Source of the DNA: Nocardioides astragali
GTDB taxonomy: Bacteria > Actinomycetota > Actinomycetes > Propionibacteriales > Nocardioidaceae
Assembly (NCBI RefSeq): GCF_024436375.1
Contig: NZ_JAFMZM010000003.1
Location: forward strand, 453,627-517,626
DNA: 64,000 nt
Direction of reading: 5' to 3'
The notes below the pieces were generated by a model that did not search any database, was not told the origin of the DNA, and saw nothing but the letters and a program-made list of their open reading frames with translations. Shown one piece after another: positions 830 through 51,478 of this stretch (the first letter of the stretch is position 1; each line of letters opens with the position of its first letter). The translations under genes were made by a program, and so were the position numbers.

Positions 830-3711
<2,882 letters not shown>

Positions 3712-49502: not shown

Positions 49503-49546
49503 AGGTTCACCGTCGCCGAGTCGCGGACGTTTCGACGGGCGCTGGA

Positions 49547-50869
49547 TCATCCCGGTCGCCGGGCCCACATCTGGGTCGGGGTCCACTGGTGGCTGTCGTA
49601 GTTCGGCACCGGGTCGATCGCGTCCGTCAGCACCGTCACGTTGCTCGGGTCGTCGGCCGAGACGGCGATCACTCCGCCGGGCAGCGTCTCGTCATCCTCG
49701 GTCCAGGCCGCGTACAGCAGCGTCGTCCCCTCAGGCGACCACGAGACCGTGAACGGGTACCAGAGCTGCCCGTCGGCCTCTGGCGCCTCGATGACGGTCT
49801 CGGACTTGTCGGCGACGTCCACGAGGACGACCTCATGTCTCTCTCCGCCGCCGGCGAGGCGTTGGTAGGCGATGCGGTCCCCGGTGGGCGACCACACGAG
49901 CCCGATCCCGTGGAGGTTCCCGCCCGCCTCGGCGAAAAGCAACCGCTCGTTGGCGCCGTCGCCGTCGACGAGCCAGAGGTCCGGGGGGTCGGTCTCGCCG
50001 CCCGTGTACGCCAGGGTCGCGCCGTCCGGCGACCACGTGATGTGTGCGGCCTCGACAGAGCCGAGATGGCGGAGCTCACCAGTGGCCACCGAGTAGACGC
50101 TGACCGGCGTCGACAGCGTGCGTGCCGCGCGGGAGGGCCCCATGTCGCCCGCGATCGCGAGCTCGTCGGTGCCGGGGCGCCACTCGAGATCGCTCGGCCG
50201 CAGGTCTGGCAGACGCCGAATCGTGCCGGTCTGCGTGTCGACCACCCATACCTCGCCGTCTCCTGCGAGGGCGACCCACCGACCGTCCGGTGCCCAGATT
50301 CCGCACGGATGGACGTCGTGACCCGTGATCACGTCGAAGCCGTCGAGCGCGATCACGGTCGGGGTCCCGGTTGTGCCGCTCTGGTCGACCGGGACGATCA
50401 CGAGCTCGGCGTCGATGGGCGAGGTGTCCGACGTAGGGCTCACTCGGCCGAACAGCAGCCTCGTGCCATCCGGCGACCACGCCGGGCACGCCTCGGTGGT
50501 CGCAGCCGATCCCGCGACCTCGAGCCGGCGGGCGTCCTCGCCTGGCCGGAGGAGGTAGATCTCGCCCCCGCCCTGCCACGTGTCGACCGCTACCCACCCG
50601 TTGGTGTCCGACCCGAGCGTCCTCGTGCTGGGGAGCCTTGGGGCGGCGGGCTGTGCCGGCTCTGTACGCGTGCCTCCCGTCGTCAGCGCGGCCCCAGCTG
50701 CAACCAGCGCGACCGCAGCGGTCGTCGCGAGAACAGCGGCTGCGCGGTTGCGGCGTGCCCGCTTGCGGCCGGCGGCCACGTACGACGGCACGTCGAACGT
50801 CAGCGCACCCGGATGGTCGTCGACGGCGGCGTGCAGCCGAGCGGTCCAGATCTCCTCGGGGGTGCTCAT
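49547..50869 (-). CDS. Membrane-anchored PD40/TolB-like beta-propeller protein, probable anti-sigma partner
   Basis: 440 residues: cytoplasmic N-terminus (1-43), one membrane helix (about 44-64), then an extracytoplasmic WD40-like propeller with repeated WSPDGTRLLF, WAPDGRWVAL, WSPDGATLAYTG, WSPTGDRIAY and WSPEGTTLLYA blades. The gene's ATG overlaps the sigma-factor stop (ATGA). The topology fits an anti-sigma or stress sensor, although no zinc anti-sigma motif is present. Its function may be lost if the sigma gene is truly broken. Confidence 0.85.
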   Translation of the reverse strand: MSTPEEIWTARLHAAVDDHPGALTFDVPSYVAAGRKRARRNRAAAVLATTAAVALVAAGAALTTGGTRTEPAQPAAPRLPSTRTLGSDTNGWVAVDTWQGGGEIYLLRPGEDARRLEVAGSAATTEACPAWSPDGTRLLFGRVSPTSDTSPIDAELVIVPVDQSGTTGTPTVIALDGFDVITGHDVHPCGIWAPDGRWVALAGDGEVWVVDTQTGTIRRLPDLRPSDLEWRPGTDELAIAGDMGPSRAARTLSTPVSVYSVATGELRHLGSVEAAHITWSPDGATLAYTGGETDPPDLWLVDGDGANERLLFAEAGGNLHGIGLVWSPTGDRIAYQRLAGGGERHEVVLVDVADKSETVIEAPEADGQLWYPFTVSWSPEGTTLLYAAWTEDDETLPGGVIAVSADDPSNVTVLTDAIDPVPNYDSHQWTPTQMWARRPG

Positions 50870-51370
50870 GCCCGATCCTCGCTTCGGTAGTGGGAGGCCA
50901 GGGCTTCCTCGAGCTTGTGCAGCCCGATCGCGCACTGACTCTTGACGCTGCCCTCGCTGATCCCCAGGTCCCCCGCGGTCTCGGCCACCGACAGGCCCCA
51001 GTAGTGGCGCAGCACGACAACCCGGCGCTGCCCCGCCGGGAGGGCTTTCAGCGCCCGGATCAACGCCCGGTGGTCGACGTCCGGCATCTCCGTGACGGGC
51101 TCGTGCCCCTCCAGCGGCTCGGACTCCCGCCGCCACGGGCGACGGAGCTCGTCGATGTGTGAATTGACGATGACCCGGCGTGTGTAGCCGTCCAGCCGGT
51201 CCCCGCGCACCAGCCGTGGCCACGCGACGTAGAGCTTGAGCAGCGCGTTCTGCACCAGGTCGTCGGCCTGGGCCACGTTGCCGCACAACAGGTAGGCAGT
51301 GCGCCACAGCGCAGGTCGAGACCCCCGCGACGTACTCCGCGAACTCCTCGTCCTGCCTGGCCGCACCCAT
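50866..51370 (-). pseudogene. SigE-family ECF sigma factor, frameshifted
   Basis: An ECF sigma gene in two frames. ATG 51370, behind a perfect GGAGG, opens MGAARQDEEFAEYVAG. The rest (ALWRTAYLLCGNVAQADDLVQNALLKLYVAWPRL sigma-2; LPAGQRRVVVLRHYWGLSVAETAGDLGISEGSVKSQ sigma-4) lies one frame away. Removing one C from the run at 51322-51326 restores a single protein of about 167 residues. It may be a true mutation, an assembly error or regulated slippage. Without repair, the sigma-2 N-terminus is lost. The downstream propeller gene is translationally coupled. Confidence 0.8.
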
Positions 51371-51478
51371 GGCAACCTCCGTCTGCTTCTTATAGTCCAA
51401 CGGAACGGACACAGGATCGGTTGGATCGGGCTGTCCGCTGGACCAGCCCAGCACCAGAAGCGCCCCTAGGATCGCGGA

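Follow-up and report, generated by a model that had tools for sequence, protein, structure and literature searches.

An ECF sigma gene in Nocardioides astragali has probably been put out of frame by a genuine, recent and accidental one-base insertion in this lineage, with the extra base more probably present in the cell than produced by a consensus error. The gene, assigned to the SigE family (TIGR02983-like) and coupled to a membrane propeller partner, would have gained one base in or beside a G run after codon 15, through a slip at this short run that may have been left uncorrected by the actinobacterial NucS repair. As an event, such a frameshift is commonplace.

On the minus strand of the window (the whole 64-kb stretch of DNA that was analysed), reading from ATG 51370-51368 behind a GGAGG motif gives MGAARQDEEFAEYVA, and the product of this frame opens as MGAARQDEEFAEYVAG and continues with residues without family matches. 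The body frame, beginning with SRPALWRTAYLLCG, carries Sigma70_r2 and Sigma70_r4_2, with matches of 47.8 bits to PF04542 and 46.1 bits to PF08281, both above cut-off, indicating that sigma region 2 and region 4.2 are present. This body is one base out of frame relative to the ATG start, the break falling at the G5 run (Table 1), and it shows no extra stop or shift within its own frame. Its TGA (50868-50866) overlaps the propeller ATG (50869-50867) as ATGA. Both the one-base frameshift between a GGAGG-led start and the sigma body, with its coordinates, and the intact coupling to the propeller gene had been described in the earlier note and were confirmed in the sequence. Two further features had been missed there, namely an in-frame GTG at 51366 and the continuation of the ATG frame, open, into the propeller gene. 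The body frame also has a second candidate start, TTG 51375, which was rejected owing to its position directly after GGAGG with zero spacing.

Table 1. Features of the sigma and propeller genes, in positions of the window
Feature	Position	Strand	Basis
Promoter-like block upstream of sigma gene, AACC-N16-CGTT spacing in the window	51396..51425	-	Conservation in orthologues; putative promoter role
GGAGG ribosome-binding site, spaced 5 nt from ATG and 9 nt from GTG	51376..51380	-	Sequence; kept in 4/4 orthologues
Sigma gene, first 15 codons in ATG frame, MGAARQDEEFAEYVA	51326..51370	-	Sequence, alignment, decamer score
G5 run (C5 on +), site of frame break; orthologues one base shorter	51322..51326	-	Sequence, alignment
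Sigma body, second frame, SRPALWRTAYLLCG ... RSEDRA, stop TGA	50866..51321	-	Frame, domain matches
GTG opening the body frame; predicted 166-aa product with Arg-rich N-terminus	51364..51366	-	Sequence; putative use as start
ATGA overlap of sigma stop and propeller start	50866..50869	-	Sequence
Partner gene: short N-terminus, one hydrophobic segment, PD40/TolB-like propeller, 440 aa	49547..50869	-	Frame, domain matches
Open frame running from sigma ATG to the end of the propeller gene, 607 aa	49547..51370	-	Frame reading

The ATG-frame N-terminus of the sigma gene is beyond chance. Its decamer DEEFAEYVAG scored 32.3 bits against a profile derived from alignment A3 after removal of the three closest orthologues (33 of 36 rows retained), and among 926,656 decamers from all six frames of 464 kb (a sample that includes the window) this score was reached once, by DEEFAEYVAG itself. 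In the body frame, the peptide at this position scored -19.5 with the same profile. The conserved N-terminus that had been proposed to lie in the other frame was therefore borne out. In addition, a frame comparison of 59 loci (L009-L066 and L072), corresponding to 56 distinct homologues and three duplicates, with five distant MAG matches (L067-L071) left out, revealed the N-terminus in the body frame in 55 of the 56 (54 by a script rule and L024 by eye). Homologues starting within the second frame, which had been named as evidence that would speak against a frameshift, were thus not what the comparison returned. The exception, L064 from Nocardioides sp. TF02-7, has its own frameshift in mid-gene, elsewhere than that of the window. 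Alignments A2 and A3 comprised 36 homologue sequences of 55 usable, and within the same genome the N-terminus lay in the body frame in all seven paralogues examined by eye, out of 24 further sigma matches.

The extra base was located by alignment with three close orthologues, from N. sediminis (L038, 89% identity), N. islandensis (L039, 84%) and Knoellia flava (L040, 78%), each of which is one base shorter at the break and consists of one single open frame starting at ATG. The comparison of the run in relatives that had been proposed was in this way carried out. The suggestion that removal of one C from C5 restores the frame fits the three shorter orthologues, but the alignment cannot tell which base was inserted. 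With TIGR02983, the three orthologues scored 151.4, 156.7 and 146.7 bits, respectively, all above the cut-off of 141.55, and the body-frame protein of the window scored 141.4 bits, just below it, matching profile positions 13-160 of 162. Compared with the SigE family, the window body thus shares regions 2 and 4.2, whereas the N-terminal part is absent from its own frame. PHROGs returned general sigma matches only, and no group for the sigma-propeller pair was found in the available text on ECF classification with WD40 partners (PMC8999054).

Relative to N. sediminis, the sigma body showed a dN of 0.054 and a dS of 0.457. When N. islandensis served as outgroup, the window lineage received 12 synonymous and 8 nonsynonymous substitutions and its sister 17 and 7, and with Knoellia in this role the corresponding counts were 11 and 7 versus 22 and 7. 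These counts are small, and they indicate constraint during most of the history of the lineage, which says nothing on present function. Since the body still looks constrained, decay, if any, would be young. Accordingly, the two features by which a young frameshift pseudogene can be recognized, an indel absent from all three orthologues and an undecayed body, were both observed.

A consensus or assembly error, in which the strain's gene would be intact and the extra base would exist in the record only, is a possible, though on the whole unlikely, explanation. It is consistent with the fact that all other parts of the gene are intact and constrained, and such records do exist in the genus, as L064 of Nocardioides sp. 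TF02-7 contains two frameshift-like breaks within 6.4 kb (the homologue broken in mid-gene, at 3001-3427, and a second junction at about 890), which suggests an indel-prone assembly. Moreover, for an older genome, that of Vibrio fischeri ES114, comparative checks are reported to have uncovered errors at 75 of the 82 loci under suspicion, with frameshifts accounting for most of the inaccurate ones (PMC2330054). The errors described there share with the present case a one-base shift in an otherwise intact gene, revealed by relatives, but the genome studied here bears no sign of a generally indel-rich assembly. Scanning of 464 kb of it (20 stretches plus the window) with a codon-based frame model yielded two raw calls, and on closer inspection neither was convincing as a frameshift. 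One (L090) was an ordinary four-base overlap, and the other (L074, at 15355) followed a complete ORF, the next ORF having no nearby ATG, GTG or TTG, so that this second gene may be defective. Of the simulated indels, the scan recovered 39 of 54 placed deep in genes and 44 of 95 in total, an overall recall below 50%, and the sigma gene itself is not flagged because its break lies too close to the start for the method. Control scans gave no call in 160 kb of G139, none in 120 kb of G025 and one, uninspected, in 120 kb of G001. With zero confirmed cases in 464 kb, 5.17 Mb could still contain dozens of indels, whether real or erroneous. Overall, the assembly is not indel-rich, but a single error is still possible.

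For a slip in the cell, the repair genes of the organism are also relevant. A NucS match of 130 bits was found in the genome, and the profile search returned no MutS1 match and a MutL match of just 25.6 bits against a cut-off of 180. For mycobacteria, runs of 4-5 are reported to acquire frameshifts at 1e-7 to 1e-6 per CFU, and NucS reportedly leaves these uncorrected (PMC10159617). Owing to the few frameshift calls in 464 kb, the presence of NucS without MutS1 or a full MutL, and these reported mycobacterial rates, a real recent slip is favoured over an error, being taken as roughly twice as likely, a division that is a matter of judgement. Of the three origins listed in the earlier note (a recent change, an assembly error or a slippage switch), the first is hence preferred to the second, and the third is unlikely, the run being ordinary and not kept.

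Use of the gene in a new form, with initiation at GTG 51366, a 166-aa sigma factor whose N-terminus is recoded, and ATGA coupling left intact, is improbable. The 9-nt distance of this GTG from GGAGG has counterparts: among 52 sampled genes of the same genome with GGAGG near the start (start sites approximate) the spacing was 9 nt in nine, one of them starting with GTG, and 5 nt in 11. The body is constrained, and the AlphaFold2 model of the 166-aa product keeps the first helix (3-28). However, this product would lack F10, a nearly invariant residue, as well as the DEEF..YV segment, the TIGR02983 score falls just under a cut-off that the orthologues exceed, and none of the three orthologues begins other than at ATG. 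The AlphaFold2 confidence in the first two blocks was 71/82 versus 84/91 in the N. sediminis protein, in a prediction whose shared alignment biases towards helix; with this shared alignment, structure prediction did not separate the altered from the normal N-terminus.

It is very improbable that the G run acts as a reversible or programmed switch, either through phase variation by replication slippage or through a +1 ribosomal slip at GGG-G. The G5 run would permit a +1 slip of a GGG-reading tRNA, and reversible silencing by frameshift has been described for M. tuberculosis (PMC8339072), but the mycobacterial study reports high slip rates for runs of 7-9, not 4-5 (PMC10159617). Five-base runs are ordinary in the window, which holds 111 G/C runs of at least five bases in 64 kb (92 of 5, 16 of 6 and 3 of 7), and a homopolymer hotspot was likewise rejected on account of this ordinary run length. 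Unlike the ATG frame here, which is open for 607 codons, +1 frameshift sites of the prfB type have a slow stop codon. Neither a long nor a conserved mutable run, as expected of a phase-variable switch, was observed, given that there is only G5, which none of the three orthologues retains; for a programmed +1 frameshift, neither a conserved slip site nor a pausing stop codon (the sole pausing element looked at) was found. The ordinary run length, the lack of conservation and the lack of a pausing stop codon together make a built-in switch unlikely. Also very improbable is a two-way leader, in which ATG would yield a 607-aa sigma-start/propeller fusion and no free sigma, and the GTG four bases on would yield a recoded sigma with intact coupling and a normal propeller; the propeller frame across the sigma body has no stop in the window and 4, 3 and 1 stops in N. 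sediminis, N. islandensis and K. flava, respectively, but this lends such a leader weak support, since synonymous shuffling of the window body also left that frame stop-free in 12.6% of cases.

The surroundings of the gene point to a sparse and apparently mobile two-gene unit. A match at E 1e-50 was found in 3 of 215 genomes of the genus, the own genome counted, as well as in Knoellia flava, and a class-wide search of 394 sampled genomes at E 1e-55 recovered the own genome only, with no further close orthologue. The block common to the window and N. sediminis spans window positions 49541-51429 and that common to N. islandensis 49547-51429, i.e., the two genes and about 60 bases upstream, and the adjoining acetyltransferase gene has its match on a different N. 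sediminis contig. Because the shared block is limited in this way and the neighbour lies elsewhere, the pair looks like a moving unit. The pair and its upstream region are shared with both species, and the neighbours are not beside it there. In the propeller partner, the PD40 propeller is preceded by a short, charged N-terminus and a single hydrophobic segment, an arrangement resembling that of a membrane anti-sigma factor, and the protein gave only a weak match to the CU044_5270 family (13.2 bits versus 100). In the promoter-like block, AACC(G/C)AT and TTCCGTTxGAC are kept in all four aligned orthologues, among which the perfect inverted repeat TCCAAC/GTTGGA occurs in the window only. The pattern CCAACCN{15,17}CGTTGG had one hit in the own genome versus three control hits; it was hit elsewhere in G139 and G026 and missed their own cassettes, and is thus too strict for a regulon test.

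Under the favoured reading of a real recent insertion, initiation at ATG 51370 would give 15 correct residues and then nonsense, reading on in frame, without a stop, to the end of the propeller gene as a 607-aa fusion. Free sigma would arise only via initiation at GTG 51366, with an altered N-terminus, or via rare ribosome slips, so that sigma output would probably be lost or much reduced; given that the body frame has its GTG start, silencing of the gene may be incomplete. The case resembles frameshift-silenced genes of actinobacteria lacking MutS/L, as presented in two reports (PMC8339072 and PMC10159617), in the one-base indel at a G/C run, the high GC, and the presence of NucS without MutS1, and differs from them in a run of five, a single genome and no evidence of reversal. 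For annotation, gene callers may take the 607- or 747-aa frame, or the 166- or 169-aa frame, as the gene and thereby miss the conserved sigma N-terminus that has been cut off. If the insertion is real, it provides one example of how a single slip, in an actinobacterium that lacks MutS/L-type repair, can remove an ECF regulator while the partner gene persists.
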